IMG/VR virus record: IMGVR_UViG_3300010389_000164
Coordinates: 1 to 21,312 of that record
Reading direction: 5' to 3' (one strand)
From: a virus
DNA length: 21,312 nucleotides
This document shows, one piece after another, positions 3,389 through 20,693 of the stretch; the first letter of the stretch is position 1, and each line of letters starts with the position of its first letter. Made by a program: the position numbers and the translations under genes. Below the pieces are notes generated by a model, which saw nothing but the letters and a program-made list of their open reading frames with translations, ran no database searches and was not told the DNA's origin.

Positions 3389-3820
3389 ATGGCCAAAACC
3401 CTTTTCGGGCCTGGTGTCATCGTCACCTCCCAGTGGCTGAACGGCGCGCGAGACATAAAATTCGACGGGGCCGACCTCGACTGGCACTATCCCCCTCTCA
3501 ACGCGAGCGACATCCAGCGGGGAGGGGAGGGAGGCCTCGACAACGTATACGTCACGCTCAACACCGACCAGACGTACGGCTCCACGCCGATCGTCGGCCC
3601 GAAGAGCTTCATGGGCCCGGTGGCGTTTGGCGATCAGGCCAACACCAATCCTAACTACGCTCCCCTCTCCTGGAATACGAACGCCAAGTTCAACCAGGGC
3701 GGCACTGAGCAGAATTTCCTCACCAAGTACTCGCAGCTCACTGACGCCGACGTGGTCACGAAGGCAGTCCTCACCGAGCGCATTGCTAACTTCCCGATCG
3801 TAGACGAAGGCTCCTTCTGA
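3389..3820 (+). CDS. small structural protein, first gene of baseplate block
   Basis: 143 aa, no enzyme motif. The start 'LFGPGVIVTSQWLNGARDIKFDG' followed by 'DLDWHYPPLNASDIQ' looks like small tail/baseplate proteins I have seen beside cyanophage baseplate genes, but I cannot name the family. The C-terminus 'DADVVTKAVLTERI' followed by 'PIVDEGSF' parallels the C-termini of the products of 6900-8570 and 8554-8760 (TKxYVD-like segment, then a terminal DxGxF/Y). The Shine-Dalgarno is poor (TAGG just before the ATG). The stop overlaps the next start as TGATG, so the next gene is probably translationally coupled. Likely a virion component of the baseplate or an adapter for fibres; function unknown. 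Confidence 0.6.
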   Translation: MAKTLFGPGVIVTSQWLNGARDIKFDGADLDWHYPPLNASDIQRGGEGGLDNVYVTLNTDQTYGSTPIVGPKSFMGPVAFGDQANTNPNYAPLSWNTNAKFNQGGTEQNFLTKYSQLTDADVVTKAVLTERIANFPIVDEGSF

Positions 3821-6800
3821 TGCCCCAGTACGCTCCGCTCCCCAACATCGATCTCGATCCGCGCAATGAGACCGAGCTCGTGGCAGCCGCGGCGCAGAGG
3901 GTCTTCGAGGCGTCTGGTTCCACGATCAACGACTTCTCGGCCGGCTCGCCGATCACCGCCCTGCTCGAGGGTCAGGCATTCGCCCAGGCTGAATTCCTGC
4001 AGTTCGCGAATCAATTCCCCGAGTCCGTTCTCGTAGAGTGGATCGGGCCGTTTCTTGGCGCCCAGAGGCGCGCCGGCGCGGGTTCCACTGTGACTCTGGA
4101 ATTCACCATTGCGCCACGCGATCGTGAGTTCGTCATCTTCCCGGGATTCGAGGTATCCTCGGACTCTAACCTGACGGGCGGTCAGGCTATCACTTTCATC
4201 ACGACGGACCGGATCACCATTCCGGCCGGCGAGAGCACGGGCCAAGGCGTCGCGGTATCGCTGCTGAAGGGCGTGGCGATGAACGTCGCCCCGAATACCA
4301 TCACAAGGGTACTCACCAATCTCGATGGCATCCAGGGCGTCAATAATCCCGATTCAGCATTTGGCGGAGAGGACCCCGAGCTGCTAGATGAGGTCAAGGA
4401 GCGCTTCTTTACGCTCATCCGCCGCCGCAATCCGGTCTCCGCTGAGGATTGGCAGAGCTTCTTCGAGGATGCCCTCGGCGCTGGTGCGCCTGTTAACGTG
4501 CTGCCGCGCCGCTCAGAGAAGGAAGTCTATCGGTACGAGGCGGACTACGTCACCTCGAATCCGTCCGTATCATTCTTCGCACTCAATCCCGACGGCTCCC
4601 CACTGACTTTGGCGCAGCGCAACGGGCTGCAGAACCTGATCAAATTCAGCCTGCCGATCGAATTTACGGGCAACGTCTACTCGATGGAGGTCGACGATGT
4701 TGACATTGAGCTGACTGTCGCCTACGACCCCGCTAAGAACTACGCTACCGATCTGCGTAATTTCAGTCGCACCGTTCGCGACAGCATGTTCGGGATCATG
4801 ACGCCCAACGCGGTATTCCCGATCAGCTATGCGCCGTCCGTGTCCGATGTCGAAGGTGCGCTGACGACCAGCTTCCCGGCCGTGCTCGGCTCGGGCAATC
4901 AATTCGTAGATCCCGATATTGAGGCGATCTACGCGTACTACACGCCGCGGAACATGTCCTCGGCGACCTTTACTCGTGTCGTTCCAAAGCCGTTCGTAAC
5001 CGATTTCTCGCTCAATCAGAACGACCTTGTTGTTGATGCGACGGGGGTTGAGCAGAGGTTCTACGCTGTGGCCAATAGCTTCAATCCTGTCACCGGCTCT
5101 AAGGGGTATCACGCGAATCTAGGCGATCTGACTCTGATTATCATCAAAGATCTGACCGCATCAACATATAGCACTGGTGATGTAATTAGTCTTGGTATTG
5201 AAGCCGATGCGACCCTGCATGTGGTGCTGGCTCCGTTTACATATAACGCCAGGAAGACGATCCCTCAACTAGTGGAAGAGGGCCTCTTAAGTGAGGCTAA
5301 GGAATTCAGTGAGTTCCTTGTCAATACTCCCTACACCACCACTGACGCCCTGGGGCGCTATAATCCACAGCTGATTGAATTTCAGCGTGGTGATACGGAC
5401 TTCGAGACATTCGAGCCGCGTAATCCAGCTGGTGTGCCCCCTACAAAGCGCGCCGGATGGCCTGTGTGGGTCGTCGCGCGCGATTTCACGCGGGTGACCA
5501 ATACGACCAACCTGTCCACAGCGCAAGCACAAGGGTTGGTTTCCACCAATTCCGAAGAGGTTCTACTACTCGAGCCCGGGGTTGAGTATCTTGCCGGTCA
5601 ATACGTATCGACCCCCTCGCCGGAGGAAGCTCTCCTGCGCTCGATTTTGGCTGAGGTATGCTACACCGATGTCCTTCGCGGTGCGTCGAAAGTGTACGCG
5701 AAGGTCCTCAATTCATTCACCTTCACCCTCGGTACTGATCAGACTTACAAGGAAGAAATCGACGGCCTGGTGGCTGCTGGTGTCATCGAAATTATCGATG
5801 TGGTAGACTTTGTCGATTGCGCAGGAAGATCCTCCTTCAAAGATCGCCCGTTCCGCTATGAGGCCCGCTTCCGCATCGGCGAGTACATCAGATATAGGCC
5901 GGAAGGTGGCTTTGATGCTCGGCAGCTCGAGGAGTGCTTCAGGGAGTCCGCCACCTGTCCGACGCTATCCTCCGGTTGCAAGCGCCTGATCGAGCAGAAT
6001 CTACCACTGCCGTCCTACTATTATGTGCTCCGTGACTTCACGCCGAATACCTCGAGCGTAGAAGAACTGGTAGCGCAGAATCTCATCATTGAGGTACCAT
6101 CAACCTATTTCTTCACGAAATACGCGGTGACGGCCCGCACATCGACGGAGCTTGTCGATCTCAACACAATTTCCACACTCATGGTGGCTGACGGCCTCAT
6201 CGAGAGCACGAATGATCTCGTGATCGGGGATAATGTCACCCTTCGTGACGTGTCGGGACGTGATGTCCGAATCTACTTCTGGACTGGGGAGGGCTGGTCT
6301 GTTGATATAGGTGGCATCCCAGTCTACCGGGATATGTTCCGATTTGCGCCTGGCGACGCAGCTTCCTTCCGCAGCGGTAGTGTTGTCCGCCAATATGAGG
6401 CAACTCAGCACATTACGCCCATTCTTGACCTAGAAACCTACTTTGATAACGGTGTCTTCATTGCGTCGGAAAAGACGGAAAATATCAAATATGTCGATCC
6501 TCTTTACCATTACGAGGATGTTGTTGCGGATGTGACTGATAAGCAGGCTCGCTTTTATCGGGCTATCCGATCCTTCACGCCCCCGTCCACAGTTACGACA
6601 TGGGTCGGCCCCGATCAAGAAAATAATGAGCGCACCGAGGAAATCTTCGGTAATTTGCTTAAATTCGTTGTGCGCGCGGAGGGGCAGCAGAACATCTTCT
6701 CTCGCCTCGGCCCGCAAGTATCCACGACGAAGCTTGGCTCGACCAATATCAAGTTGCGCTCGCAAGCCAACAAAAATCCCGAGAATAATTTCGTTTGGGA

Positions 6801-6903
6801 GTCCACCGATTCCTCGTTGATTCCACCCCAACTTTCTTTCTTCACGGGGACGCAATTCCAGTTCAGGCCAGTAAATTACGGTAGCGGCACGCTTGCGCTA
6901 TGA
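3820..6903 (+). CDS. baseplate J/gp6-like protein with long C-terminal extension
   Basis: 1027 aa. Residues ~1-390 match the Baseplate J (Mu gp47/T4 gp6) layout: N-terminal helices ('NDFSAGSPITALLEGQAFAQ'), a beta-domain with 'GSTVTLEFTIA...FPGFEVSSD' and 'TDRITIPAGES', then 'NTITRVLTNLDGIQGVNNPDSAFGGEDPE' and the helical 'KERFFTLIRRRNPVSAEDW'. The G-V-NP...GG.D.E block is highly characteristic. gp6-type proteins form the inner ring of the baseplate wedge. The family is normally ~350-660 aa, so residues ~400-1027 are an extension. It contains degenerate repeats of the form [F/Y]Yxxxxx-FTP followed by LVxxGLI, near residues 414, 549, 625, 734, 768, 860 and 912. Codon usage is more AT-tolerant than in the capsid gene. 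It overlaps the next gene by ATGA. Confidence 0.78.
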   Translation: MPQYAPLPNIDLDPRNETELVAAAAQRVFEASGSTINDFSAGSPITALLEGQAFAQAEFLQFANQFPESVLVEWIGPFLGAQRRAGAGSTVTLEFTIAPRDREFVIFPGFEVSSDSNLTGGQAITFITTDRITIPAGESTGQGVAVSLLKGVAMNVAPNTITRVLTNLDGIQGVNNPDSAFGGEDPELLDEVKERFFTLIRRRNPVSAEDWQSFFEDALGAGAPVNVLPRRSEKEVYRYEADYVTSNPSVSFFALNPDGSPLTLAQRNGLQNLIKFSLPIEFTGNVYSMEVDDVDIELTVAYDPAKNYATDLRNFSRTVRDSMFGIMTPNAVFPISYAPSVSDVEGALTTSFPAVLGSGNQFVDPDIEAIYAYYTPRNMSSATFTRVVPKPFVTDFSLNQNDLVVDATGVEQRFYAVANSFNPVTGSKGYHANLGDLTLIIIKDLTASTYSTGDVISLGIEADATLHVVLAPFTYNARKTIPQLVEEGLLSEAKEFSEFLVNTPYTTTDALGRYNPQLIEFQRGDTDFETFEPRNPAGVPPTKRAGWPVWVVARDFTRVTNTTNLSTAQAQGLVSTNSEEVLLLEPGVEYLAGQYVSTPSPEEALLRSILAEVCYTDVLRGASKVYAKVLNSFTFTLGTDQTYKEEIDGLVAAGVIEIIDVVDFVDCAGRSSFKDRPFRYEARFRIGEYIRYRPEGGFDARQLEECFRESATCPTLSSGCKRLIEQNLPLPSYYYVLRDFTPNTSSVEELVAQNLIIEVPSTYFFTKYAVTARTSTELVDLNTISTLMVADGLIESTNDLVIGDNVTLRDVSGRDVRIYFWTGEGWSVDIGGIPVYRDMFRFAPGDAASFRSGSVVRQYEATQHITPILDLETYFDNGVFIASEKTENIKYVDPLYHYEDVVADVTDKQARFYRAIRSFTPPSTVTTWVGPDQENNERTEEIFGNLLKFVVRAEGQQNIFSRLGPQVSTTKLGSTNIKLRSQANKNPENNFVWESTDSSLIPPQLSFFTGTQFQFRPVNYGSGTLAL
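5059..6640 (+). repeat. Degenerate protein repeats in the J-like extension
   Basis: The encoded copies share an aromatic-rich strand (FYAVANSFNP, VWVVARDFT, VYAKVLNSFTF, YYYVLRDFTP, FYRAIRSFTP), and some are followed ~15-20 residues on by a helix-like LVxxGxI (LVEEGLL, LVAAGVI, LVAQNLI, MVADGLI). Spacing is irregular (about 35-180 residues) and DNA identity is not kept, so these are old repeats. The pattern resembles small carbohydrate-binding beta-modules but this is not proven. Confidence 0.5.
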
Positions 6904-8570
6904 CGGAGGTTCTTCCACAGTCCCAGATCGGACCGGTCAAGACGACGCTTTTCACCGAGACCGAACCCGTCGTAAAGTTCCTCAACCCGGACGCGGCTCG
7001 TGTCATTGGCACTCTGCCCGTTCCAACTGTTTGGGGCAGAGCAAGCGGCCGGCCTATTTATGATAGGCTGCCCGCCATAAGTGGCTCCTACGTCACGGAT
7101 TTCACCAATGGTGAAACGGTCAAGATTTATATCGCCGACCAGAATAGGGCATTGGGCCCGGGTACCCTGCAGGTCGGTATTTGGGACCGTGATTCTGGCA
7201 TTCTCGTTATCCAAAGTGGCACGCTAGTTTGGCAGAATGGTCCCGTTGATGTTCAGGCACTGGCCATCAAACTTTCCGCTCTCGAGAACGGTAACGGCCT
7301 ACAGGATGGTGAGTACCAGGTTGGCTACACACTGAGATTCGACCCGGATACAAGCCCAAAGTACAAGGAATACAAGGTAGAGGACTACTCCCTTGCCGCC
7401 AGCGCAACAATCTACGGCGCGACTGCCGCGGCTGAGCAGTACCCGGTGGAAGTTGCTTTTACCGATGAGATAGACACCAGCTGGAGGCCGTCGGATACCG
7501 GCTATGTTGGGGGTTATGACGATGGGCAGTCGCTCATTTTGGATTTCACCGAGCCGTGCAAAGCGGAGCGATTTCTATTGACGGCCTCAGCGGTCGAATA
7601 CGCCACGGCAAAATGTTCCATCTATTGGTCCGACGACGCCATCATTTGGCATCTTGACGATAAGGTCTGGGAGCCGAAGAGCGGCCAGTGGGATATGACT
7701 ATTTCCGAACAAACCAAGCACCGCTATTGGAAGCTCTTTTTCTGGTCTGGCATCGTAGATGTTCAGCAGTTTGCCTATACCGGCACAGCGTTATATGCGG
7801 ACGAACGTCGCACCGGGGCCGTTACTGTTGCCGAGCCATATCTTGATGAGTTGTATGCCGAAATTGAGAACGCTCACATTCAATTAGCAACAATCGAAGT
7901 AAGAGACAATCTCATTGTACGTGTCGAGGACTATCGTTTATCGCAGATCACTTATGATCAATATCAACCTGTAGCCTCCTGGCTCACATCCTTCCAGGAT
8001 ACGTCTATCAGGAAGTATTTTACGGATATCGAGAAGTATGCCGAGCGGTGGATGGCACCGCCGACCGCGTGCTACGGCATCTATGACGAGCTACTCGAGG
8101 AAGATACCTTCGAATTGGGCTCCGATCTCGACTATCCGAGATTGGATCTGCCATCGCGCGTCAGCTTGGAGGCAGGTTACTACTTCACCTACGATGACAT
8201 CGATATACAGATCGACGGCGAGCAGAACTTCTACGCCAACCCTGTTCTGCTTAATATCCCGACTCCCGAGATAACCACAGAATCTGGTGTGGCGATCGGC
8301 ACCACGGACGGAAAGGCCATCACGATCGACCGGCCCATGTCGACCATGATGTACTCGCTCAAGGGTAAGAGTGACTCACTGGGCCTCGCGACCAACCCCG
8401 GAGATGTTCAGATCCAGGGCGACGAGGTCACCGTATACAGATCCTCGAACCGGATCGAGCCCTACCACGTGACGAACGTAGCCGGGCCCGAAGACGACAG
8501 CGACCTGTCCACGAAAGCGTACGTGGACGCGGCCCTCATCGTGAATATGGACAATGGCGCATACGATTGA
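6900..8570 (+). CDS. baseplate/tail structural protein with discoidin-like domain
   Basis: 556 aa. Residues ~183-305 look like an F5/8-type C (discoidin) jelly-roll: 'SLILDFTEPCKAERFLLTAS', then 'SIYWSDDAIIWH' and 'HRYWKLFFW...VQQFAYTG', the strand order expected of that fold. Such domains bind sugars or stabilise fibre networks. Residues ~320-410 are mostly helical. The C-terminus has 'VTNVAGPEDDSDLSTKAYVD', a tail-fibre-type segment, and ends in MDNGAYD. It overlaps the upstream J-like gene by 4 nt (ATGA) and the downstream 68-aa gene by 17 nt; the next ATG lies inside the codons for the terminal D-N-G. Its place after the gp6-like gene is compatible with a gp7-like wedge role, but sequence alone does not establish that. 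Confidence 0.65.
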   Translation: MTEVLPQSQIGPVKTTLFTETEPVVKFLNPDAARVIGTLPVPTVWGRASGRPIYDRLPAISGSYVTDFTNGETVKIYIADQNRALGPGTLQVGIWDRDSGILVIQSGTLVWQNGPVDVQALAIKLSALENGNGLQDGEYQVGYTLRFDPDTSPKYKEYKVEDYSLAASATIYGATAAAEQYPVEVAFTDEIDTSWRPSDTGYVGGYDDGQSLILDFTEPCKAERFLLTASAVEYATAKCSIYWSDDAIIWHLDDKVWEPKSGQWDMTISEQTKHRYWKLFFWSGIVDVQQFAYTGTALYADERRTGAVTVAEPYLDELYAEIENAHIQLATIEVRDNLIVRVEDYRLSQITYDQYQPVASWLTSFQDTSIRKYFTDIEKYAERWMAPPTACYGIYDELLEEDTFELGSDLDYPRLDLPSRVSLEAGYYFTYDDIDIQIDGEQNFYANPVLLNIPTPEITTESGVAIGTTDGKAITIDRPMSTMMYSLKGKSDSLGLATNPGDVQIQGDEVTVYRSSNRIEPYHVTNVAGPEDDSDLSTKAYVDAALIVNMDNGAYD

Positions 8571-8760
8571 GACAGTTTCCGCGGATGTCCAGGTGACTGG
8601 CATCCTCGACATGCGCACCAACCGGATCACGGGCCTCGACCTGGATCTGGACTTCTATCCGCAATTGCCAGAGGACGGAGCGAGCAAGAAGTACGTGGAC
8701 TTCAAGAAGAATGAGATAATCGAAGCACTGCCTGTTCTCGTCAACAACGGGACGTTCTGA
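8554..8760 (+). CDS. 68-aa fibre-adapter-like protein
   Basis: A very small protein consisting almost entirely of a tail-fibre-type motif: 'ILDMRTNRITGLDLDLD' then 'DGASKKYVDFKKNEI' and the terminus VLVNNGTF. The NRITGL...A(S/T)KxYVD pattern is common in phage fibres, where it marks a short beta-strand followed by a coiled-coil trimer segment. Its C-terminus parallels those of the genes at 3389 and 6900. It overlaps the upstream gene by 17 nt and is followed 4 nt later by the giant gene, with no independent Shine-Dalgarno, so it depends on coupled translation. It is probably real, because the protein motif is specific and the spacing tight. Likely a trimeric linker in the virion. Confidence 0.65.
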   Translation: MAHTIETVSADVQVTGILDMRTNRITGLDLDLDFYPQLPEDGASKKYVDFKKNEIIEALPVLVNNGTF

Positions 8761-8764
8761 AGCG

Positions 8765-11700
8765 ATGCCGCGCCAGATATTCGACGTCGAGCAGTACGAA
8801 CTCCGCGGTACGCTACCGCAGACGTACACTGAGAGCCAGAAAAATACTCTCAATAAGGTCGTTTCGCGCGTAAACGGCCAGCTGGACTGGACCGCCCAGC
8901 TCCTCGGTTTCAACGGCCCGAGATACTGGGGCTCGCCGTCTGTAGACGCAGAAGGCAACTATCAATTCGTTGGTCTACCTCAGACCGTTTCTGAAAAGCG
9001 CGCTCTGCAGACAGGCGCTTTCGGCATTTACAATAAAGACAAGCCCTACGAGTCGTGGCCCGCCCCGTTCAATAGGAAGGCTGTAGGCGCATCCGCTGAT
9101 TTCACCTTCTCTATCGAAGATCGCGATGGCCAGGTGGCAGTCTGGCCATTCGGGCAGGACCGCAATTTCACCTTCGAGAAGTCGCCCTTTCTGGTCATTG
9201 GCGGCGCATACACCTTCGACCAGCTCGTCGATGTGTCCGTCTTCGGCGCAGACCCGGAGTCTGTCGAGGTCATCCAGGATATCGATCAGCGAGTCACGCG
9301 AGTCCGGATACTTGACGACGCGATCCAGTTCATCGCTGTCTATCTCGAAGGCAGCGACGCTAAGCCTTTCACCTTTTCGACTCGCAATTGGGTTGACCCT
9401 TCCGATTGGGAAGACGACCAGGTCCGCGAACAATTCCTAGGCGCATGGGGCAGTAAGGGTAATCAGCTGTCGATGCACTTTGCATTTGACGCACTCGATC
9501 TGCACGGCTTCAACGAGGTTGAGGCACTTTCGCTCGATAAGATTACCGGATCTCTTACGATTTCGGATCTTCTGGGCCTAATCGGTTTGAAGCCGGGGCC
9601 GATGTCTGCGTTGGTCTCAGCCCCGTACTCGTTCGAAGTAGAGGGCTGCGAGGTATCCGGCCCGTTCAGCCCGTCTGTTGAGTTTGAATCGACATCAGCA
9701 ACACTCCAGACCAACGATTTCCTCGACATTACCTCAGAGGATGGGCGGCTGATCGCCTCCGACGAGGGCTCCTGCGGGGTGCAGGATTACATCTTCATGC
9801 TCACGGACGGTGACGACGGTACCGGGGGCGGCTCGGAATTTGACAATGGCTTCTTCCCCGATGAGGGGAATGTAGCCTGCTTCTCAGATAACGGGACATT
9901 CGAATTACCGGGCTCCGTCACCGGCGAGCTCAACAACGGTGTCTACGAGCTGACCGGCGATTTTCCGATCGAGGCCAACGGCATCTACGATCAAAATCCG
10001 CTGTCAATCTGCCAGAACGACCCGGACACTACGCCAACGGGCCTGCTATCAAACGGCGAATATCCGGGTGATTATTTCCCGAATCCTGCCGGGACCGTGG
10101 ATAATGATGGCACCTACGACATCAGCATCGAGCAGCTGATGACGGAGGATCTCAAGCTTATTTCCGCCAACAATGAGTCGTTTGACTATAGCGGCTGCTA
10201 TGCGGAGCCGGCCGAGGCGTATGGCGTTTGCGACACATGCGATTACACCCTCACGCTCAGGCAGACCTACGACAGTGATCCTAATGGCTTAGCGACCGAC
10301 CCTGGGCCTGAGACTAGCATCCCGATCGGTCTTAATGGCTTCATGCGTGATGCCGAGATAGATTGCGGCATTGACAACGGTGGCTTCGAGGATAATATCC
10401 TCACCAATTTCTACCTTGACCGGGCGCGCACGGTTCTGTGGGAGGACATCGTTCCGGTCAATTCCTTCACCGTTGAGACACGCGATAGCGGTACATTTAC
10501 AATCCAAGAGCTGGGCGGCTTTTTTGAATTTCTTGCCCGTAACCAGTTCGTGGCTATTCCGCCCCCGGCCAACTCGTTTAACGGCGGTCTGATTGATGAT
10601 GGCTCGTACGGGGACTTGAACCCGAATGCGCTGACCAAATTTGATTTGAATCTGCCTGACCAGGACATCACCGGCGGAATTCGCGACTATGGTGATCTCT
10701 CGCCGGCTGTTGGCACGACCGCGTGGGATTTTGGTGTCGTCTACCAGGTGCCGTTCGACGGCGTGGTCGACCAACAGATCGGTGAATACGCGATCTACGA
10801 TGGCATCTACGATCAAGACCCGGCGCTCAATTGCGACACTCCGCAGGCGCCCGAGATCGACATCAATTACTTTGACCTGGTTGTCGATATATTTGGCGAG
10901 CCAGGACCAATTCTAATTTCCGATTCCGGAGTAGGGAATGAGATCGTATTGACCGCCGCTGATGACGATGAGTTCGGTTACGACGGCCTCACGATCGCTT
11001 TCGACGGTTTAGAACTGGCTCAGCTGGCATTTGACTACGAGGCAAAGACCCCATTCGCGATGACCGAGTTTCCTTCTGTGGAGTGGGTTGTCGATTTGCA
11101 GCTCGATAACGGCACATTCTACCCTGTCTCGGATCAGGGCGCCTGGATGGGCACTGACGACGGCGATTTCGAGGACCGCATGGAGTTCGTCCGCGTCGGC
11201 ACCATCGCGTCGATCTTTGATTCGGAGCAGGAGGCCATTGGCCTGGAGTTCAAGGGCGGTCTGCTGACCTTCGATGACGGGGAATTCGACGAGCTTGTTG
11301 AGCCAAATTGCGATTTCGAGGGCGGGAGCCCATGCGCGCTTGTTGATGGCGGTGTCTTTGTTGAGGGTCTTGACGCGACCGTTGCCAATACAAATTGCTT
11401 CGAGGAATGCGGCAAGATCGACAGCGGCGATTACAAATTCTTTGGCTATGTACCGCCGGCAACTCCGGTCATTGACGGCCAGGGGTCACGCACCATTCCC
11501 GATTCCTGCACACTTTACGATAACTCAACCTACGATCGTGCACCACGTCCCGATGCGTCTGGGGAGGGGTATTTCTCCTGCACCACCTACGACAACTCGG
11601 TCTACCCATTCACTGGTATTTACGACTGCAATCTGGAGGAATGGGGCGAGTTCGGGCTCAGCCCGGCCGGTCCCCGGGTCGATCAGGGCGAGTATACCGA

Positions 11701-13882
11701 CTCATCGTTCCCGGAAAGCTGCGCGCCTTGCGGCCCGGTGGAGCCCGGTTTTGATTGCTATATCAATAATGGCACGCTGGAAAACTTTGCCCCGGGCGCA
11801 CTGGCCGACGAGGGTTTCTACGACAACGCTTTCGAGATCTGCGAGCCCTGCGTCGTGGAGGTAGAGTCTACGGTTCCATGCTACGTGCCACCGGTCCGCA
11901 TCCGCCTCGACCGGGCCATCTACGCCAACCCCCTCTGGAAGTTCAATCCCTCGGTGGTCAACGCCGAGACGCCGCTACGCGTTTGGAAGAACCACGTGCT
12001 TTCTGTCGTCGACGATCGCTCAGACGAGATCACCAACGAGAACGTCGGCGATTTCCTGGAATCGAAAGCCTATCACAATTCCTTTGTCGCGGATCACAAT
12101 ACTGGCCCAGAACGGGAGAATTCTTATCGGTATTTCGTGCGCCTTCCCGCCGAATACTCACGCAATAGCCGCCAGTGGAACAAGGCGACGAATATCGTCA
12201 GCTCCTACGGCTATTTCTCCTCGGTGTACCCACTGGCCGACACCGCTGTACGCCCGTACGACATCCGCCCGTACCTGTACGACGACGTCTATTGCCAATG
12301 CGCTGAGGATCTGCCGGATTACGCCGTCTTCTACCAGGAGGACTACCTCGTCTCATCCGTCAAAACCGCTCGGATTGACGCCCAGGCCGGCTTCCAGGAG
12401 TCGAACATCAGCTTCGAGAATGCGGCCGAAGTATTCCCATTCGCAGCCGGCCTGATCGTCAATTACGATCCATTCGATGAGCGCGAGATCCGCAATCAGG
12501 ACGGGGAGTGGGCCGGCACGTACTTCAAGTGGCAACGCCGCGGCCCGCTTACCGGCTATCTCATCACGGATGTCCTCGACAGTAAACTGCGGGCCGTCGA
12601 GCGCGGCGAGGAGCCCGAAGGCGATTACTCGTTCATCAAGGCGCCCAACACTGAGTTCCCCGATGATACCGACGTCGCGAACTTCGCGAATTACACGGTC
12701 GCCTACGCTTACTTCACCGCCGACCTATCGGCGGCTGACGAACCAGTATTCGACCCGACCGTCAAATACAGCTGGCGGGAGTGCAACATTCCGAAATGTG
12801 ACGACGGGACGCCCGTCTTCGAGACAGACATCACGGGCATCGAAATCCTCACCGAGGACGGCTTCAATCTCGGTCTGGGCGGAGCTCCTGTCTATGTTGA
12901 GAGCGCGGTCGAGTCTAACACGGCCTACCTTCTCAATAGGTGTGAGAAGTTCGTCGCGCCGCAGATCGATATCGAGCAATTCCTGGACAATCCGACGCCG
13001 GCCCCACGCAAGCGTTCGGGCACCCCGCCTGCTGCACCTGGAACGCCGACGATCACATTTGATCCACCTGGCGGCTCAGGCACGCTTTCTGGAGCAGTTA
13101 AGTTAACTGGCACCCTGACTAATGCCTCTTCGGTCGAGGTTCAGATCGGGCTGTTTGTCAGATCGGCTACCGTGAATACGGATGGCACCTGGGAGTACGC
13201 GATGACGCCAGCGGACTTTGCCGAATTTGTTCGAGTGGCGACGCCATCGGGGCAGTTCGTGTTACAAGCTACGGCTCTATCTGATACCCCCGGTCTGACC
13301 GCTACGGCCCGGGTTAATGCGCTGCTTGCGTTGCCAACCAATCGCAATCGAACTTTGGTTGCGGTCATCGACGAGAACCAAGGTGCTGTTGGCTGGTCGA
13401 ATAACCCGACATACCACGGCCCCCTGCCGGATGTTGAGACCGCTTGGCAGCAGTTCCGTGATAAGTGGCCCGATCGCTCGTTCTATCTGCTCGAGCCTTA
13501 CGGCGGGTGGGGCGGATTCTCGACTGAGATGCCCGATGGCACTGAGTCCAGGATCAAGATTCCCGATCAGTTCATCGACGAGGTGGTCGAGGGCACGAAG
13601 ACGTTCTACACCCACGTCAATCGCGACTACGGCCAGGCTAAGGACGCGTCCGACTGGTACACGCTCATCAACGGTGACGCGCTGCCAGAAGGAGCAGAAA
13701 TCGCTCTGTTCGTGGACAATTCTGGAAGCCTCACGACCGCTCAGGTCCAGGCGTCCTACGATCTCTTCCTCGAGAAGCTCGCCGAGCGCAATATCGGCAT
13801 AATTGTGGTGGAAAACCGTAACGAAGACTGGATCGGGCCGTTCATGGGCGATCTATTCGGAGACGAAGAGCCGGTAGACTAA
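8765..13882 (+). CDS. giant tail/baseplate structural protein, Ig-like and vWA-like C-terminus
   Basis: 1705 aa, the largest gene here. Residues 1-~350 are mixed beta with no domain I can name. Residues ~358-1025 are acidic and Cys-rich and hold ~20 copies of [D/N]-[D/N/G/S]-G-x-[F/Y]-[D/E] (DNGFF, NNGVY, DDGSY, DNGTF, DDGEF, DSGDY, DQGEY and others), several preceded by Cys. Residues ~1040-1400 are another beta-rich part; ~1409-1428 form a Pro-rich linker; ~1428-1515 look like a bacterial Ig-like domain. The end (~1520-1705) has 'RTLVAVIDENQG' and then 'IALFVDNSGSLTT', a DxSxS MIDAS-like motif at D1651, followed by a helix and 'IGIIVVENRNEDW'. I recall similar vWA-like ends in cyanophage structural proteins. 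It lies between baseplate and spike genes, so tail tip or long fibre is likely. No Shine-Dalgarno; coupled to the 68-aa gene. Confidence 0.7.
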   Translation: MPRQIFDVEQYELRGTLPQTYTESQKNTLNKVVSRVNGQLDWTAQLLGFNGPRYWGSPSVDAEGNYQFVGLPQTVSEKRALQTGAFGIYNKDKPYESWPAPFNRKAVGASADFTFSIEDRDGQVAVWPFGQDRNFTFEKSPFLVIGGAYTFDQLVDVSVFGADPESVEVIQDIDQRVTRVRILDDAIQFIAVYLEGSDAKPFTFSTRNWVDPSDWEDDQVREQFLGAWGSKGNQLSMHFAFDALDLHGFNEVEALSLDKITGSLTISDLLGLIGLKPGPMSALVSAPYSFEVEGCEVSGPFSPSVEFESTSATLQTNDFLDITSEDGRLIASDEGSCGVQDYIFMLTDGDDGTGGGSEFDNGFFPDEGNVACFSDNGTFELPGSVTGELNNGVYELTGDFPIEANGIYDQNPLSICQNDPDTTPTGLLSNGEYPGDYFPNPAGTVDNDGTYDISIEQLMTEDLKLISANNESFDYSGCYAEPAEAYGVCDTCDYTLTLRQTYDSDPNGLATDPGPETSIPIGLNGFMRDAEIDCGIDNGGFEDNILTNFYLDRARTVLWEDIVPVNSFTVETRDSGTFTIQELGGFFEFLARNQFVAIPPPANSFNGGLIDDGSYGDLNPNALTKFDLNLPDQDITGGIRDYGDLSPAVGTTAWDFGVVYQVPFDGVVDQQIGEYAIYDGIYDQDPALNCDTPQAPEIDINYFDLVVDIFGEPGPILISDSGVGNEIVLTAADDDEFGYDGLTIAFDGLELAQLAFDYEAKTPFAMTEFPSVEWVVDLQLDNGTFYPVSDQGAWMGTDDGDFEDRMEFVRVGTIASIFDSEQEAIGLEFKGGLLTFDDGEFDELVEPNCDFEGGSPCALVDGGVFVEGLDATVANTNCFEECGKIDSGDYKFFGYVPPATPVIDGQGSRTIPDSCTLYDNSTYDRAPRPDASGEGYFSCTTYDNSVYPFTGIYDCNLEEWGEFGLSPAGPRVDQGEYTDSSFPESCAPCGPVEPGFDCYINNGTLENFAPGALADEGFYDNAFEICEPCVVEVESTVPCYVPPVRIRLDRAIYANPLWKFNPSVVNAETPLRVWKNHVLSVVDDRSDEITNENVGDFLESKAYHNSFVADHNTGPERENSYRYFVRLPAEYSRNSRQWNKATNIVSSYGYFSSVYPLADTAVRPYDIRPYLYDDVYCQCAEDLPDYAVFYQEDYLVSSVKTARIDAQAGFQESNISFENAAEVFPFAAGLIVNYDPFDEREIRNQDGEWAGTYFKWQRRGPLTGYLITDVLDSKLRAVERGEEPEGDYSFIKAPNTEFPDDTDVANFANYTVAYAYFTADLSAADEPVFDPTVKYSWRECNIPKCDDGTPVFETDITGIEILTEDGFNLGLGGAPVYVESAVESNTAYLLNRCEKFVAPQIDIEQFLDNPTPAPRKRSGTPPAAPGTPTITFDPPGGSGTLSGAVKLTGTLTNASSVEVQIGLFVRSATVNTDGTWEYAMTPADFAEFVRVATPSGQFVLQATALSDTPGLTATARVNALLALPTNRNRTLVAVIDENQGAVGWSNNPTYHGPLPDVETAWQQFRDKWPDRSFYLLEPYGGWGGFSTEMPDGTESRIKIPDQFIDEVVEGTKTFYTHVNRDYGQAKDASDWYTLINGDALPEGAEIALFVDNSGSLTTAQVQASYDLFLEKLAERNIGIIVVENRNEDWIGPFMGDLFGDEEPVD
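9838..11850 (+). repeat. Array of ~20 DxGxF/Y peptide motifs
   Basis: Short motif copies spaced ~10-80 residues apart inside the giant protein, e.g. FDNGFF, SDNGTF, NNGVY, ANGIYD, DNDGTYD, DNGGFED, DDGSYGD, YDGIYD, DNGTF, DDGDFED, DDGEFDE, DGGVF, DSGDY, YDNSTYD, YDNSVY, DQGEY, INNGTL, DEGFYDN. Codons differ between copies, so conservation is at the protein level. Confidence 0.75.
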
Positions 13883-13888
13883 ACGAAT

Positions 13889-14572
13889 ATGGGCAGAAAC
13901 CTCGAGCAGTTCGGCAAACTGCTGAACAATTACAATCAGGCCTCTCAATACGCACGCGATAACGCCGGGACCCTAAAAGAGACCGCAGGTCGTGTGATAG
14001 ACGTCGAAGATCCCGAGGAGATGGGCAGGATCCGGGTAGTGCTACGAGAAGTCGACCCGAAGTACCTCGAAGAGAACGGCCTCCCGCAGGGCGGCGCGGC
14101 GGAGACAGAGAGCGACTGGATCAACCCGTTCCCGGCCTTTAAGGGCAAGCAGCCGAAATCCCTGCTCGAGAAGCGGGTGAAGATCATGCCCTCCCAAGGC
14201 GATCCAAACAAGATGATCTTCGGCGACGTGCTGTACGACATCGACGATGATCCGACGATCAAGGAGATGCCGAACACGTCAAATATGACGCGGCTCCCCG
14301 TGTATAAGACGGACGAATTGCCGCCGGCGACTAAGGAAAATGTCGGGTGCGTCATAGTCGAGGAGGCAGGGCCGAACGGCAATGACTGGCTCATGGTCTG
14401 CCTGAAGCGCTACGGCGACTACAAGTGGGTGAGGCACATCGATCGCCTGCACTACCACGACGGCCAGCTGCCTGATAATGACCCGGGCGATAATTCTTCC
14501 AACGATACTCAGAACCGCACTTGGGACGCGGTGACCGAGACGACGAACGACGAGAAAGAGGGCACCGACTGA
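13889..14572 (+). CDS. baseplate spike/hub protein with gp5-like OB-fold
   Basis: 227 aa. 'AGRVIDVEDPEEMGRIRVVLREVDP' (residues ~33-57) is the characteristic first hairpin of the T4 gp5/gpV OB-fold: G.V.DV.DP...GR.RV. It continues with 'WINPFPAF', 'LLEKRVKIMPSQGDPNKMIFGDVLYD' (to ~120), matching the strand with a GDP.....G turn. A second small beta part follows ('NVGCVIVEEAGPNGNDWLMVC', 'YKWVRH') and an acidic, Asn/Thr-rich, probably disordered tail from ~190. OB-fold hub proteins sit at the tip of the tube and carry the membrane-piercing spike. Here neither a lysozyme domain nor a visible beta-helix follows, so the needle may be supplied by another protein. It starts 6 nt after the giant gene, with no clear Shine-Dalgarno. 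Confidence 0.7.
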   Translation: MGRNLEQFGKLLNNYNQASQYARDNAGTLKETAGRVIDVEDPEEMGRIRVVLREVDPKYLEENGLPQGGAAETESDWINPFPAFKGKQPKSLLEKRVKIMPSQGDPNKMIFGDVLYDIDDDPTIKEMPNTSNMTRLPVYKTDELPPATKENVGCVIVEEAGPNGNDWLMVCLKRYGDYKWVRHIDRLHYHDGQLPDNDPGDNSSNDTQNRTWDAVTETTNDEKEGTD

Positions 14573-14614
14573 TCCATCGGGTAAATCCAAAGGGACAGAC
14601 CGTCCGACCGTGAC

Positions 14615-15766
14615 GTGCGCACAGAGTACGCGGTAGACCCGGACGACGTCACCTCCTCGGCCCGGGTCGCCTGGTGGGAGTCCCTCCCGCTGAACGACGC
14701 CGAGCCATACGAAACAGCCGCCTGGAAGTACACCCAGACGGTCATCGAGGTGACAGAGGAGTCCGACGAGCCAGGCTCGATGGGCGACCAGGACGACCTG
14801 GACGTCGAGGGTGTAGCCTGGTGGGAGACTATTGGCGGTGAAGGGCCCAAGCCCTACGAAGCTGCGGCCTGGGCGTATGTCTCGGCAGTAATCTCCGAGG
14901 TAGAAGACGCCTGCGGCGATACTACTCTCGCGGACGGGACGCCCCTACCGCCGGACCTCGAGTGTCCAGCGGACGAATGGTGGGCGACTTTAGGCGGGGA
15001 GGGGCCGAAGCCGTACGCTACTGCCACATGGCAGTACCTGTTCGATTCGGATCTCCTGTTCGAGATCGTCGCCATCTCGACCACCGAACTCGCCTCTCTC
15101 GACGAGGGCATCATCGGAGGGGGAGGTGAGCAATCGTCATACGATGCTGGCCTGTTCGGGTCGTCCCCGGGAATCCTCATCGACGGCGTCTTTTACACCA
15201 CGACCGGGTACGGCATAGAGGTGAAGCGCACATTCGCCGAAATTAAAGTCTACGACTCGCTCGCGTCGTCACCGGGGCCGCTCCCGCTGATCACGCAGCC
15301 CGTCGGTAATTTGGCCACAGAGCCAAACGGCGGCGGGGACGTTGTCCTCCTCGACCCGTCCACATTGGGTGATACCGATCTCGGCACGGACCCATTTGAA
15401 GTCCAGCTCGAGACCGACATCCCGCCCCTAGAATCGCAGGAGATTCTGATCAACGGTGGTGGATTCGACGGATTCGCGATCGAATTCCAGCGATTGTCAA
15501 ATAAAGCGGATGATGTGCCGCCTGGTCAGCTGCTCGGGCAAGTCAATTACGAGATATTTGGCTCGGTCGCGACAATTACGTCGTGGGATCACTACAACTG
15601 GGAGGATGACACTCCCATCCGCAGGGCGGTGCTCGCGATGCTCAATGGTCTCCCCGACGAGGTGATCGAAGTCCGCGTGCTCGACGACCCCACGGCGCTC
15701 TGGCAGTCCTTGGGCTTCAACAGGGCGTACAAAGGCGACCCGTACATTCACTATTTCCCGGGCTGA
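14615..15766 (+). CDS. structural protein: triple WW repeat plus GNAT-like domain
   Basis: 383 aa. The start is GTG at 14615, the first start codon after the in-frame stop at 14582; AAAGGGA lies ~20 nt upstream, further than usual. Residues 18-142 have three repeats of WWxxLGGEGPxPYxxAxWxY (WW at 20-21, 69-70 and 122-123). The middle part (~145-270) is beta-rich and glycine-rich. Residues ~276-383 resemble a GNAT acetyltransferase fold: 'GFAIEFQRLS', 'GQVNYEIFGSVATITSWDHYNWEDD', helix 'RRAVLAMLNGLP', strand 'VIEVRVLDD', helix 'PTALWQSLGFNRAYKGD' ending in YIHYF. The R/QxxGxG/A loop that binds acetyl-CoA is not visible (EDDTPIRRAV instead), so activity is doubtful. The surrounding baseplate genes suggest a virion protein. 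Confidence 0.65.
   Translation: MRTEYAVDPDDVTSSARVAWWESLPLNDAEPYETAAWKYTQTVIEVTEESDEPGSMGDQDDLDVEGVAWWETIGGEGPKPYEAAAWAYVSAVISEVEDACGDTTLADGTPLPPDLECPADEWWATLGGEGPKPYATATWQYLFDSDLLFEIVAISTTELASLDEGIIGGGGEQSSYDAGLFGSSPGILIDGVFYTTTGYGIEVKRTFAEIKVYDSLASSPGPLPLITQPVGNLATEPNGGGDVVLLDPSTLGDTDLGTDPFEVQLETDIPPLESQEILINGGGFDGFAIEFQRLSNKADDVPPGQLLGQVNYEIFGSVATITSWDHYNWEDDTPIRRAVLAMLNGLPDEVIEVRVLDDPTALWQSLGFNRAYKGDPYIHYFPG
14666..15040 (+). repeat. Three tandem ~50-residue WW/GGEGPxPY repeats
   Basis: Copies at residues ~18-50, 67-99 and 120-142. Copies 2 and 3 share GGEGPKPY exactly but differ at several silent sites; copy 1 has diverged (LPLNDAEPYETAAW). The repeat unit is aromatic-rich and helical after the Pro-Tyr. 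Confidence 0.85.
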
Positions 15767-15769
15767 CGA

Positions 15770-16813
15770 ATGGCCGCTCCGCAACTCTCAGAAGCTATCG
15801 TCAGGGACCAGACCAAGATTCGTCTGGTGTTCGACCAGGCGCTTGACGGCACGATTGCGGTGCCGGTCACCTGCTTCCAGATCAATTACGGGAAGATCCC
15901 CATCGTCGACCGGAAGTACGTCGACACCAATGAGCTCGAGCTCATCCTCGGCCGCAATCTGACGCCTGGCGACAAGATATTCCTCAACTACACGCCGCCA
16001 GAGGATGTCAACCTGGCGCTACGCGCGCCGGTCAAGGCGAATGCGAGTGTGGCGACGATCCGCCGTAACGTTGTCCGGGCGCTGTTCAAGTTCCCATGCC
16101 GCAACTTCCTGAAGATCAGCGAGTCGGGTGAGGGCTGGGAGGCTGATTCCAACCTGGGAGCCTACGCTGACGGTGCCCCATATTCGAGGCGTGATCGCCC
16201 CGCCAATCCGCGTTCAGCCGGAGTTGACGATTTCGTGATGGCGTACGGCCTGAAGGAAGCGATTCAGATCACGAATATCGACGACGCGGACGCGACGCAG
16301 CCGAACGAGGTGCGCCTGATGATGGCGATCCAGGACGCCAACGCCCTGATCGACTCCTACATCAACCAGTCGACGAAGGCCGGTAAGCTGCTCGTTAGCT
16401 CTAACCGCCGCCGCACATCGCTGATCATCGCGCGGTATTACCTCGACACCGTGCGCCGCCGGGAGGACGTCCTCAAGGACTACGAGCGCTGCATCAAGGA
16501 GCTCGAGGCCGCGACCACATACAACATGGCGGTCAGGCCGGACTCCGAGATGGCAATCAACTCGCCTGCTGGACTCCTGCGGTCCTGGCGCGTGCCGCAA
16601 TACTACAATGGTGTCAGCGGCAAGGGTCTCAGCGGCTGGTGGACCGATTCCGCTGGCGATCTTGTGCGCGATTGGCGCTACAACCGGATCAACGCCGAGG
16701 TCAACAACAACGATCAGAACTGGCGCGCTCAGCCTACTAATGAGGGCCGCACTCCCGAGCAGCCCGCAGACGACGCCGCGACGATCGTGTCCGGCAACTC
16801 CCAGTCCTCGTAA
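15770..16813 (+). CDS. SwmB-like domain fused to gp36/DUF1320-like head-tail protein
   Basis: 347 aa. Residues ~5-80 ('KIRLVFDQALDGT' to 'NELELILGRNLTPGDKIFLNYTPP') match the Ig-like SwmB/flagellar-associated repeat: V.L.FdeaLd...F.V followed by L.L...l..GD.v.l.Yt.P. That repeat is known from the giant SwmB protein of motile Synechococcus. Residues ~150-250 match DUF1320 (Mu gp36-like): 'FVMAYGLKEAIQITN', 'MMAIQDANALIDSYI', 'IARYYLDTVRRREDVLKDYERCIKELE'. gp36-type proteins act at the head-tail junction. The last ~90 residues are polar and Asn/Gln-rich. The order SwmB then gp36 in one chain is unusual, as is its place among fibre genes. It starts 3 nt after the preceding stop. Confidence 0.7.
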   Translation: MAAPQLSEAIVRDQTKIRLVFDQALDGTIAVPVTCFQINYGKIPIVDRKYVDTNELELILGRNLTPGDKIFLNYTPPEDVNLALRAPVKANASVATIRRNVVRALFKFPCRNFLKISESGEGWEADSNLGAYADGAPYSRRDRPANPRSAGVDDFVMAYGLKEAIQITNIDDADATQPNEVRLMMAIQDANALIDSYINQSTKAGKLLVSSNRRRTSLIIARYYLDTVRRREDVLKDYERCIKELEAATTYNMAVRPDSEMAINSPAGLLRSWRVPQYYNGVSGKGLSGWWTDSAGDLVRDWRYNRINAEVNNNDQNWRAQPTNEGRTPEQPADDAATIVSGNSQSS

Positions 16814-16819
16814 CGACAG

Positions 16820-17236
16820 ATGGCCCTCAATTTCCCTTCTAATCCCGTCAACGGCCAGATCTATACCGTCGGCGACCAATCCTGGCAGTACAGTAACGCT
16901 ACAACGAGCTGGAATGTTGTCTCCCAGGCGCAAGCTCTCGGGCCGGTCTATATCGGGTCCCTCCCGCCGTCTATCGCGGTTGAGGGGGATCTTTGGTGGA
17001 ATTCAAATAGCGGCCAGCTGTACATCCGCTACGTTGATATCGACGGCGGTCAGTGGGTCAGCGCCACTGTTAACCCGCCCGTCACCAGCCTCGACTCAGG
17101 TGCTGTTATTGACGCGATCCTGAGCGAGCTGACCGAGTATTCCGACCAGGCTGCGGCTGTCGCCGGCGGTGTTCCGTCCGGAGGTTTGTATAAGGTAGCC
17201 GGTGCCGGCGTAGGCGCTATCCGTGTGGTGGTCTGA
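16820..17236 (+). CDS. small tail-fibre-type protein
   Basis: 138 aa. The N-terminus 'LNFPSNPVNGQIYTVGDQSWQYSNATTSW' is the beta-hairpin 'FP..P..G......G..W.y....W' seen at the start of many phage fibre and adhesin proteins. A second copy-like hairpin follows: 'EGDLWWNSNSGQLYIRYVDIDGGQWV'. The C-terminal part 'YSDQAAAVAGGVPSGGLYKVAGAGVGAIRVVV' resembles the ends of cyanophage structural proteins with AGGVPxGGLY. No enzyme or membrane motif. It lies 6 nt after the SwmB-gp36 gene and 12 nt before the next fibre gene. Most likely a tail fibre connector or short fibre. Confidence 0.65.
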   Translation: MALNFPSNPVNGQIYTVGDQSWQYSNATTSWNVVSQAQALGPVYIGSLPPSIAVEGDLWWNSNSGQLYIRYVDIDGGQWVSATVNPPVTSLDSGAVIDAILSELTEYSDQAAAVAGGVPSGGLYKVAGAGVGAIRVVV

Positions 17237-17243
17237 TAGGAGA
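17237..17243 (+). promoter_or_regulatory. Shine-Dalgarno of 224-aa fibre gene
   Basis: TAGGAGA directly follows the stop of the upstream gene and ends 5 nt before the ATG at 17249. It is one of the few clear ribosome binding sites in the tail block and decides the start. Confidence 0.7.
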
Positions 17244-17248
17244 ACTAG

Positions 17249-17923
17249 ATGACCCTCGCGACGATCCAGAACCTACGAACGTTCAACGCGGGAGAGCATC
17301 CGACCGACCTAGAGCCCGGCCAGATAGCTTTCAACCTGTCGCAGGACAATTTCGATCTGGCCAACTCCAACGCGAACATTTACATGTACGTTGGCAATCA
17401 ATCGGACCTGCGGCTCGACGAGGGCGGCGCGGTGTTGGTTGAAGGCGGAACCCCGGGTAAGGGCTGGGTCAGGTACAGCCTGCGGAATGTCCGTGTTGAT
17501 GGTGATACCATCTCCGGTAACCTGAATGTTGTGGGGGCTAGCGTAAAAATAAGCAGATCTGCGTCCGACTACGCGGAGCTCGTTATTCCGAAGGTTTCCG
17601 ACTCGCCGCTGTCCAGCTCCAATGTTGGCTCGGTCAGATGGAATGAGACATTTGGCAAATTGCAAGCGTGGAATGGGTCTAAGTGGGACAATACCACTAA
17701 AGTAACCGTTTCCGACACGGCTCCGCCAGATCCTTCGCACGGTGACATGTGGCTGACCGTGCTTCCGGTTCCCAACTTCTACGTGTACGTTGTGCCAACA
17801 ACGGGCCCAGCCTCGTGGGTCTCGGCCAGCAGTGGTGGTGGAACCACGGCTCTTCAGCCCGGCAATGGCGTCACCGCCAACGCCTCCAACGAGATTGACA
17901 TCATCGACCAAGGACCCTTTTAA
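17249..17923 (+). CDS. tail fibre protein (224 aa)
   Basis: The N-terminus 'IQNLRTFNAGEHPTDLEPGQIAFNL' has the fibre adapter pattern R....P..L..G[E/Q][I/L]A.N., also present in the genes at 17930 and 20114, though the rest differs. Two trimer-type beta hairpins follow: 'GSVRWNETFGKLQAWNGSKWDN' and 'VTVSDTAPPDPSHGDMWL' (the common 'P....GD.W' fibre motif). The C-terminus is DIIDQGPF, matching the DxGxF/Y ending seen elsewhere in the cluster. It is short for a host-binding fibre, so it is probably an intermediate or side fibre. It is followed 6 nt later by the large fibre. Confidence 0.65.
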   Translation: MTLATIQNLRTFNAGEHPTDLEPGQIAFNLSQDNFDLANSNANIYMYVGNQSDLRLDEGGAVLVEGGTPGKGWVRYSLRNVRVDGDTISGNLNVVGASVKISRSASDYAELVIPKVSDSPLSSSNVGSVRWNETFGKLQAWNGSKWDNTTKVTVSDTAPPDPSHGDMWLTVLPVPNFYVYVVPTTGPASWVSASSGGGTTALQPGNGVTANASNEIDIIDQGPF

Positions 17924-17929
17924 CAAGCC

Positions 17930-18533
17930 ATGGCAGTCAAGATTCAACATCTTCGCTCAGATGTAGCGAACAAGAGGCCAACAGGCGCGGGTCTGTTGGA
18001 CGGCGAGCTCGCGCTCAATATCGATAGCGGCACCCCCGGGGCATTCTTCAAGGACGAGCTCGGTGCCGTCGTTAAAGTTGGCCCCGCTGAAGTGGGCAGC
18101 ACGGCGCCAAATGCGTCCCCAGCCTCCGGCGGCTCGAGCGGCAATACGACCGGCGAATTCTGGTTCGACACCTCTAACGCCGGCGGCAATAGCCTTGCCG
18201 CGCTGAAAGTCTATAATGGATCATCCTTCGCCTACGTTGGCAAGGTGACCATCGGTAGTACCGACATTGAGCTTGGCGCAGCCGCGACGACCACCATCTC
18301 CGGCCTATCTGCTCTGACCTCCGCAGATATCAATGCCACGACGTCTGTCGATCTGCAGAACCAGGCCGACCTGCGCTTCTATGAGGCGACCGCGAATGGT
18401 ACCAATTACGTCGGTTTCCAAGCGCCCGCTGACATCTCGTCCGATGTCCTCTGGACCCTGCCTTCCGCGGACGGCACCGCTAACCAGGTCCTGACGACCA
18501 ACGGCTCGGGCACCCTGAGCTGGACCGAGGCAC
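17930..18533 (+). repeat. Fibre N-terminal adapter module, copy 1
   Basis: About 200 residues aligning along their length with the product of 20114-20693. Landmarks in both: KRPT, GELxLN, GTPGxFF, GAVxKxGPxEVGxTAPNASPA, TTIGSTxIxLGA or equivalent, YEATANGxNYVGFxAP, SDVxWxLP, ANQVLxTxGxGxLxW. DNA identity is only moderate, with many silent changes, so the duplication is not recent. Confidence 0.85.
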
Positions 18534-20029
18534 GCACCAACGACATCACCCAGGGCGACACCAGCGTCACGGTCACCGACACCGGCTCGGACGGCACCGT
18601 CACCTTTGTGACCGATGGCTCTACCCGCTGGACGATGAGCAACGCGGGCCACTTCTTGCCCGGCGCCGACTCGACCTACAACATCGGTGCCAGTGGTAAC
18701 GAGGTCAGCAATATCTACGTCGACACGCTGAACGTCGGCGCGATCACCGCCAGCGGCGATCTGACCCTGAACGGCAACGTCGACCTCGGTAACGCGACCA
18801 GCGATACCGTGACCTTCACGGCGCGCGTCGACTCCGATGTGCTTCCCTCCGTCGACAATTCGTTCGACCTGGGCTCTGCAGCTAATCGCTGGGCCGAAGT
18901 CCGAGCTGTCACCCTATACGGTACAGTCAACGAGGTCACCGTCGTCAAGTCGATCACCGGCGACAGCGGCACCGCGACCCCAACGTCCCAGACCTTCAAG
19001 ATCTCGGGCGGCACCGGCCTGACCTCCACAGCGGGCAGCCAGACTGTCACGATCGACCTGGATAACACGGCCGTCGCCGCGGGCTCCTATGGCTCCGCCT
19101 CCGCGGTCCCGACCTACACCGTCGACGCTCAGGGCCGCCTGACCGCCGCCGCGAACGTTACGATCGATATCCTGCACACGCAGGTCTCTGACTTCGACTC
19201 CGGCGTCCAGACCAACCGCCTCGACCAGATGGCGGCTCCGACCGCTTCGGTCTCGCTGAACAGCCAGCTGATCACCAACCTGCTCGACCCTGTCAGCGCT
19301 CAAGACGCGGCGACCAAGAACTACGTCGATCAGGTCGCGCAGGGTCTCGATGTCAAGGCCTCTGTCCGCGCGGCAACGACCAATAACGTCACCCTGAGCG
19401 GCACCCAGACGATCGACGGTGTGGTGCTTAGCGCTGACGACCGCGTGCTGGTCAAGTCTCAGACCTCGCAGGCTGAGAACGGCATCTATCTGGTCAAGGC
19501 CGGTTCCTGGGTTCGCTCTAATGACGCCGATACGTGGGACGAGCTGGTCTCCGCGTTCGTCTTCGTCGAGAGCGGCACCACCAACGCCGACAACGGCTAC
19601 GTCTGCACGGTCGACCCGGGCGGCACGCTTGGCTCCACGAACGTTGTCTGGGAGCAGTTCTCCGGCGCTGGTCAGATCACCGCTGGTGACGGCCTCAGCA
19701 AGAGCGGCAACACGCTCAACGTCAACCCCGACTCCCGCGCCTCCGGCACCAAGTCGATCGCAATCGTCAGCGACGAGGTGCGCATCGACGCCGCCTACGT
19801 CGGCCAGACGAGCCTTACTACGCTCGGCACGATCACGACCGGCACCTGGAACGGCTCGATCATCGGCCTCGCCTATGGCGGCACCGGCGTGAGCAACGCC
19901 TCGATCACCCAGAACTACGCGTTTCTCGGCCCCAACACCGGCGGCGCAGGTGCTCCGTCCTGGCGCGAGATCCTCACCAGCGACATCGCCCCGGTCACGG
20001 GCGGTAGCTTTGACGCTGGCACGTACTGA
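17930..20029 (+). CDS. large tail fibre / adhesin (699 aa)
   Basis: Residues 1-~200 are an adapter region shared with the 20114 gene ('HLRSDVANKRPTGAGLLDGELALN', 'GTPGAFFKDELGAVVKVGP', 'FYEATANGTNYVGFQAP', 'LPSADGTANQVLTTNGSGTLSW'). Residues ~220-320 hold beta repeats of the type 'NIGASGNEVSNIYVDTLNVG' and 'DLGSAANRWAEVRAVTL', typical of fibre shafts. 'DPVSAQDAATKNYVDQVAQGLDVKASVRAAT' through 'ENGIYLVKAGSWVRSNDAD' is a widespread fibre module. The end has 'TLGTITTGTWNG...YGGTGVSNAS' and finishes GGSFDAGTY. This is probably the main receptor-contacting fibre or its proximal half. Codon usage shifts at ~18440-18480 from mixed to almost purely C-ending codons, a possible mosaic junction. There is no Shine-Dalgarno; it is coupled to the previous gene (6 nt). 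Confidence 0.75.
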   Translation: MAVKIQHLRSDVANKRPTGAGLLDGELALNIDSGTPGAFFKDELGAVVKVGPAEVGSTAPNASPASGGSSGNTTGEFWFDTSNAGGNSLAALKVYNGSSFAYVGKVTIGSTDIELGAAATTTISGLSALTSADINATTSVDLQNQADLRFYEATANGTNYVGFQAPADISSDVLWTLPSADGTANQVLTTNGSGTLSWTEARTNDITQGDTSVTVTDTGSDGTVTFVTDGSTRWTMSNAGHFLPGADSTYNIGASGNEVSNIYVDTLNVGAITASGDLTLNGNVDLGNATSDTVTFTARVDSDVLPSVDNSFDLGSAANRWAEVRAVTLYGTVNEVTVVKSITGDSGTATPTSQTFKISGGTGLTSTAGSQTVTIDLDNTAVAAGSYGSASAVPTYTVDAQGRLTAAANVTIDILHTQVSDFDSGVQTNRLDQMAAPTASVSLNSQLITNLLDPVSAQDAATKNYVDQVAQGLDVKASVRAATTNNVTLSGTQTIDGVVLSADDRVLVKSQTSQAENGIYLVKAGSWVRSNDADTWDELVSAFVFVESGTTNADNGYVCTVDPGGTLGSTNVVWEQFSGAGQITAGDGLSKSGNTLNVNPDSRASGTKSIAIVSDEVRIDAAYVGQTSLTTLGTITTGTWNGSIIGLAYGGTGVSNASITQNYAFLGPNTGGAGAPSWREILTSDIAPVTGGSFDAGTY

Positions 20030-20113: not shown

Positions 20114-20693
20114 ATGGCAATCAATTTCCTGCTGAAGAGGTCGTCCGTCGCTAGTAAGCGACCGACCGCCGCTCAGCTAGACATAGGCGAGCTCTCGCTG
20201 AACTACGACCAGGGGACACCCGGTCTCTTTTTCGAGGACGACGCGGGCGCGGTCCGGAAGATCGGCCCGACGGAGGTCGGCGGCACGGCGCCCAACGCTT
20301 CCCCGGCCGGCCAGTCCGGCAACAGCATCGGCGAGATGTGGCTGGACAACTCCGGCACCGCACTGCTGAAGACCTGGGACGGCTCGGCTTGGAAAGTAGC
20401 CGGTGCTACGACGATCGGATCGACCTCCATCGCGCTTGGCGCGACGTCGACCACGCTCGCCGGCCTGACGTCGGTGACCTCTACGAACATGACGGTTTCG
20501 ACGGCGCTGGGCCTGTCAAACCAGGCGGAGACGAGATACTACGAGGCGACAGCCAACGGCTCCAATTACGTTGGCTTCAAAGCACCGTCTAGCATCGGCT
20601 CTGACGTCATCTGGGTGCTGCCAAACGGCGACGGTATTGCTAATCAGGTTCTGAAGACCGATGGAGCCGGAAACCTCGGGTGGGCGACCCAAA
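20114..20693 (+). repeat. Fibre N-terminal adapter module, copy 2
   Basis: Paralogous to 17930-18533; see the landmarks there. This copy is slightly shorter, with deletions in the region after NASPA and at the Gly/Asn-rich turn. Confidence 0.85.

Follow-up and report, generated by a model that had tools for sequence, protein, structure and literature searches.

The window, by which we mean the whole stretch of DNA analysed here, is an IMG/VR virus record of 21,312 bases. Its genes are collinear with those of a relative, G001 (149,878 bp), and more distantly with those of Synechococcus phage S-CBWM1 (Aokuangvirus).

Five tagged proteins in the window

Five of the 18 proteins encoded in the window end in h-[DN]-x-G-x-[FY], while the rate at which this motif occurs internally predicts about 0.035 such endings (P about 2e-10). 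We name these proteins w3389, w6900, w8554, w17249 and w17930. A sequence-only reading of this DNA had reported the endings VDEGSF, MDNGAYD, VNNGTF, IDQGPF and FDAGTY at these genes, preceded in the first three proteins by a TKxYVD-like segment, and we found all of this to be correct. In w6900 one residue (D) follows the motif, and in w8554 N takes the place of the motif's D. The relevant features, all on the + strand, are:

3752-3799, + strand: helical DVVTKAVLTERI segment preceding the w3389 tag (AF2 helix at 119-133, low confidence)
3800-3817, + strand: tag VDEGSF of w3389, a 143-aa protein (3389-3820); D and G identical in all 36 homologues
8547-8567, + strand: tag MDNGAY plus D of w6900, a 556-aa protein (6900-8570); kept in 13/13 clade homologues
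8554-8739, + strand: fibre-stem module (TGILDM..NRITGL...GASKKYVD) of w8554; profile match to PDB tail fibres
8740-8757, + strand: tag VNNGTF of w8554, a 68-aa mini-fibre (8554-8760); kept in 12/13
9839-11821, + strand: array of 15 [DN]xGx[FYW] motifs in the giant protein (8765-13882); motifs more conserved than linkers
17903-17920, + strand: tag IDQGPF of w17249, a 224-aa protein (17249-17923); conserved among homologues
20009-20026, + strand: tag FDAGTY of w17930, a 699-aa fibre protein (17930-20029); conserved among homologues, next gene 84 nt away
20114-20863, + strand: untagged fibre protein following the 17249/17930 pair; same N-terminal fibre domain as w17930

The w8554 family contains a tail-fibre stem module (TGxLDMxxNxIxxL...AxKxYVD) and, in profile searches of the PDB, matched the tail fibres 23sh_r (E 0.002) and 8vbx_R (E 0.057). 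The w3389 profile had no match in the PDB. AF2 models of w3389 (pLDDT 49.6, low confidence) and of the first 1100 residues of the giant protein (pLDDT 33.9) were too poor to use. We also considered the tyrosine corner of the immunoglobulin fold (DxGxYxC) as a source of the motif, and rejected it because the motif occupies the last residue or two of all five proteins; no Ig-domain Pfam match to the tagged window proteins was found. The baseplate J-like protein (3820-6903) carries a strongly conserved C-terminus of its own, NYGxGTLAL, which persists to about 34% overall identity.

Conservation within the clade and beyond it

About 130 related loci came from scans that used the capsid protein and w3389 as queries. 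The tag was found at the C-terminus in 26/26 homologues of w3389, 13/13 of w6900, 12/13 of w8554, and 5/5 each of w17249 and w17930, counts that refer to related proteins and not to independent samples. In G001, 5 of 174 genes are tagged, and these are the five orthologues of the tagged window genes. The sequence-only reading had proposed comparing terminal with internal occurrences and looking for free loss of the ending among homologues; terminal enrichment proved strong, and the ending was conserved.

The tag was retained despite indels and one exchanged C-terminal body. Homologues of w3389 in the window's clade all end in D[EQ]GxF, one of them with two extra residues, and in group B relatives, at 43-46% identity, the exact ending is VDNGTY or VDNGEY. 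Neither D nor G varies anywhere in the 36-row w3389 alignment, and the L060 homologue, whose C-terminal body has been replaced, still ends in VDGGSF. The w6900 homologues range in length between 462 and 558 residues, with the tag terminal in all 13 that have the tail domain; this domain is absent from L045 and from groups B and C. In group C (S-CBWM1-like), the w3389 homologues continue for about 24 residues beyond DNG[IVF]Y, so there the motif need not stand at a free C-terminus. This extension is itself a conserved tail with the pattern C.NYS......VICP (L146, L148-L170 and S-CBWM1, L007:35740-36285), and no other protein of S-CBWM1-like phages was found to carry its C.NY...ICP pattern.

Some relatives have exchanged the fibre cassette and with it lost the tagged fibres. 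In one clade member, L203 (G021 C38), different, untagged fibre genes stand in place of the 17249/17930 cassette. The L203 contig comes from a bacterial MAG, where it probably represents mis-binned phage DNA; a search of genome contigs returned only two additional MAG contigs, both from the window's clade.

The ending is not confined to this clade but recurs in unrelated aquatic phages. In the unrelated Achromobacter phage Motura, a chance match, a minor tail protein of fibre type ends in LPLLDEGTY (L204:5206-6426). Searches with the w17930 C-terminus and the Motura protein retrieved loci in which 40 of 633 ORFs were tagged, where 1.3 were expected, and about a dozen of these loci had two adjacent tagged genes. 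The tag is carried by about 20 further IMG/VR contigs. In marine T4-like phages a short protein (phrog_13853) and the fibre that follows it (phrog_15769) both end in [IL][DN]GG[TSN][FY]; profile matches in the named phages confirmed the two families, which are both PHROGs of unknown function. This pair adjoins an L-shaped-tail-fibre-assembly gene in P-SSM2, P-HM1, S-CAM9, Methylophilales phage Melnitz and Pelagibacter phage Mosig, and the examples of P-SSM2 and P-HM1 bear out the earlier suggestion that some cyanophage proteins have similar endings. S-T4, Sf-CH8, S-SKS1 and DSL-LC03 have one tagged protein each. Across 80 further IMG/VR loci, the tag was present on 27/27 distinct short proteins and 46/46 fibres and on 0/247 other ORFs. 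The 140 distinct tagged ends, attached behind unrelated protein bodies, give the consensus [ILV][DN][GNE]G[TSN][FY].

The position of fibres in the gene order was also associated with the tag. All 13 GELA-type fibres that precede another fibre are tagged, while the 15 untagged ones sampled precede none (Fisher p 0.002, for a sample that is not independent). This distribution fits a joint on non-distal segments.

Codon-level signals and the giant protein's motif array

The last codons of a gene may also serve the start of the next, and we asked if the ending could be a by-product at the DNA level, with the Shine-Dalgarno sequence or start codon of the following gene written into it. Such signals do occur. 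The w3389 ending contains the string AAGG 9 nt upstream of the next ATG, and AAGG is present in all 23 clade w3389 endings; the ATG (8554) of the w8554 gene lies inside the w6900 motif, an overlap retained by every relative examined in which both genes occur; and a Shine-Dalgarno-like string is present in 54 of the 88 tagged ends near a next gene. On the other side, group B w3389 endings are free of Shine-Dalgarno sequences, for 52 of the 140 distinct tagged ends, some of them at the ends of contigs, no gene start was detected within 40 nt, and of 68 tight gene pairs that hold a Shine-Dalgarno string in their final seven codons only 5 have the tag and 63 do not. A Shine-Dalgarno sequence requires neither the D nor the aromatic residue, and none of the 247 other ORFs in the T4-like loci ends in this way. 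Synonymous codon changes were seen at the D, G and F of the tag. Nucleotide signals bias the codons but do not create the motif. The Shine-Dalgarno and overlap explanation describes a real influence on codons that is insufficient for the motif, and we consider it very improbable as the origin of the ending. The overlap itself spans 17 nt (8554-8570), within which the w6900 tag (AAT GGC ...) is dual-coded with the start of the 8554 gene (ATG GC...).

The motif is also arrayed inside the giant protein, as the sequence-only reading had noticed. The 1705 residues contain 15 matches, compared with a mean of 2.5 and a maximum of 9 in 2000 composition shuffles, and the array also holds degenerate units such as YDNSTY. 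Clade giants have 5 to 17 motifs each where the gene is covered. Conservation at the motif positions is mostly 0.54-0.64, against mostly 0.32-0.49 for their neighbours, with G sometimes replaced by S, A, E or T. The giants of groups B and C are without the array, and the w6900 homologues there lack the tagged tail, so that the array and the w6900/w8554 tags co-occur. Group B nevertheless keeps the w3389 tag, which means that the array is not a required partner of that tag, and we rejected strand addition to the array as its sole role. In the stretches of T4-like phages examined, where fibres are tagged, no giant-type array was seen. The idea that the giant is the strand-addition partner of these endings was therefore not supported.

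The C-terminal domain of the giant (13445-13882) has a DNSGS (MIDAS-like) motif and is similar to the ends of virion structural proteins from cyanophages. The G001 sequence is unrelated after residue 1524, so the giant's end looks like a swappable host-contact module.

A putative assembly joint

Altogether, h-[DN]-x-G-x-[FY]-COOH is a real, terminal ending that is conserved at the protein level and recurs on several distinct proteins within one virion. We put at about 0.5 the probability that it is a linear tag under selection at the C-terminus of fibre-type and baseplate proteins in tailed phages, acting as an assembly joint. The preceding module, presumably trimeric, would fold first; the short hydrophobic-turn-aromatic tails would then project and plug into a putative common socket, for which the candidates are an adaptor, a baseplate protein or the N-terminal domain of the fibre segment that comes next. 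Non-distal pieces would carry the tag and the distal piece would not. In the Aokuangvirus-like clade, the internal copies might let the giant bind the socket repeatedly, or might mimic the socket. From its distribution among sequences, we infer that the tag has a docking or assembly-joint role. The common docking or assembly signal suggested by the sequence-only reading is well motivated; strand addition to the giant is unsupported. It is a tentative extension of this idea that the endings form a C-terminal ‘plug’ code, by which many tailed phages might fix unrelated virion proteins to one socket, with the giant of one clade presenting tandem copies.

The main rival to an assembly joint is an intrinsic cap, in which a trimer would seal its stem or last hairpin on the three-fold axis with its three aromatic ends and no second protein would take part. 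The tagged proteins are fibre-type, the motif alternates hydrophobic, turn and aromatic positions, and the S-CBWM1-like proteins run on past it, all of which would suit a cap. However, the same six residues stand behind unrelated bodies, the many copies in the giant sit in a region with no predicted fold, and distal fibres belonging to the same N-terminal family lack the tag and manage without it; we regard a cap as unlikely. Improbable, in our judgement, is recognition of the ending by an assembly chaperone or quality-control factor, with no structural joint in the virion. A single tag on several proteins would fit a single chaperone, and the L-shaped-tail-fibre-assembly family is found among the neighbouring genes, but chaperones known to act on fibres, Pam3 gp25 among them, attach to distal fibre domains and to no terminal hexapeptide (PMC9608196), and internal arrays in a virion-type protein would be unexpected. 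The motif is short and degenerate, which could invite a reading as chance or as a functionless leftover of repeat expansion in the giant protein; the window P of about 2e-10 refutes this statistically, conservation across divergent families speaks against it as well, and we give it almost no weight.

Common to different virion proteins of marine and freshwater phages, such a six-residue ending would show which proteins connect to one another in the baseplates and fibres, still largely unmapped, of abundant cyanophages and pelagiphages, and would provide a sequence handle for assigning many ‘hypothetical’ proteins of fibre cassettes. It would also suggest a small portable attachment peptide.

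Among known phages, the closest likeness is the marine T4-like pair (PSSM2_117/118 and PHM1_092/093), an adjacent small protein and large fibre that are both tagged and located in the fibre region, as are w17249 and w17930. The proteins nevertheless differ, since w17249 matches PHROGs other than phrog_13853 and w17930 has no profile match to phrog_15769. T4-like phages have one or two tagged proteins, and tagged baseplate proteins were not found in the sampled loci. The PDB fibres 23sh_r gp9 and 8vbx_R gp47 contain a DAATKAYVD stem module, the segment that precedes the tag in w8554, but extend far past it, and neither is known to carry the tag at its end. A text search of the open-access literature, with most subscription papers outside its scope, found no description of the motif, and we know of no precedent for a hexapeptide common to several virion proteins. 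In the cyanophage Pam3, the dedicated chaperone gp25 acts on the distal part of the trimeric fibre gp24 (PMC9608196); it binds distal fibre domains, and a C-terminal hexapeptide tag is not described there. In the sheaths of contractile tails, terminal strands are exchanged between subunits (‘handshake’ strands), for example in Milano gp20 (PMC10811340). That exchange is specific to the sheath and involves no hexapeptide common to different proteins, but the likeness in principle, that one virion protein is completed by a terminal peptide from another, gives an assembly joint of this kind a precedent.
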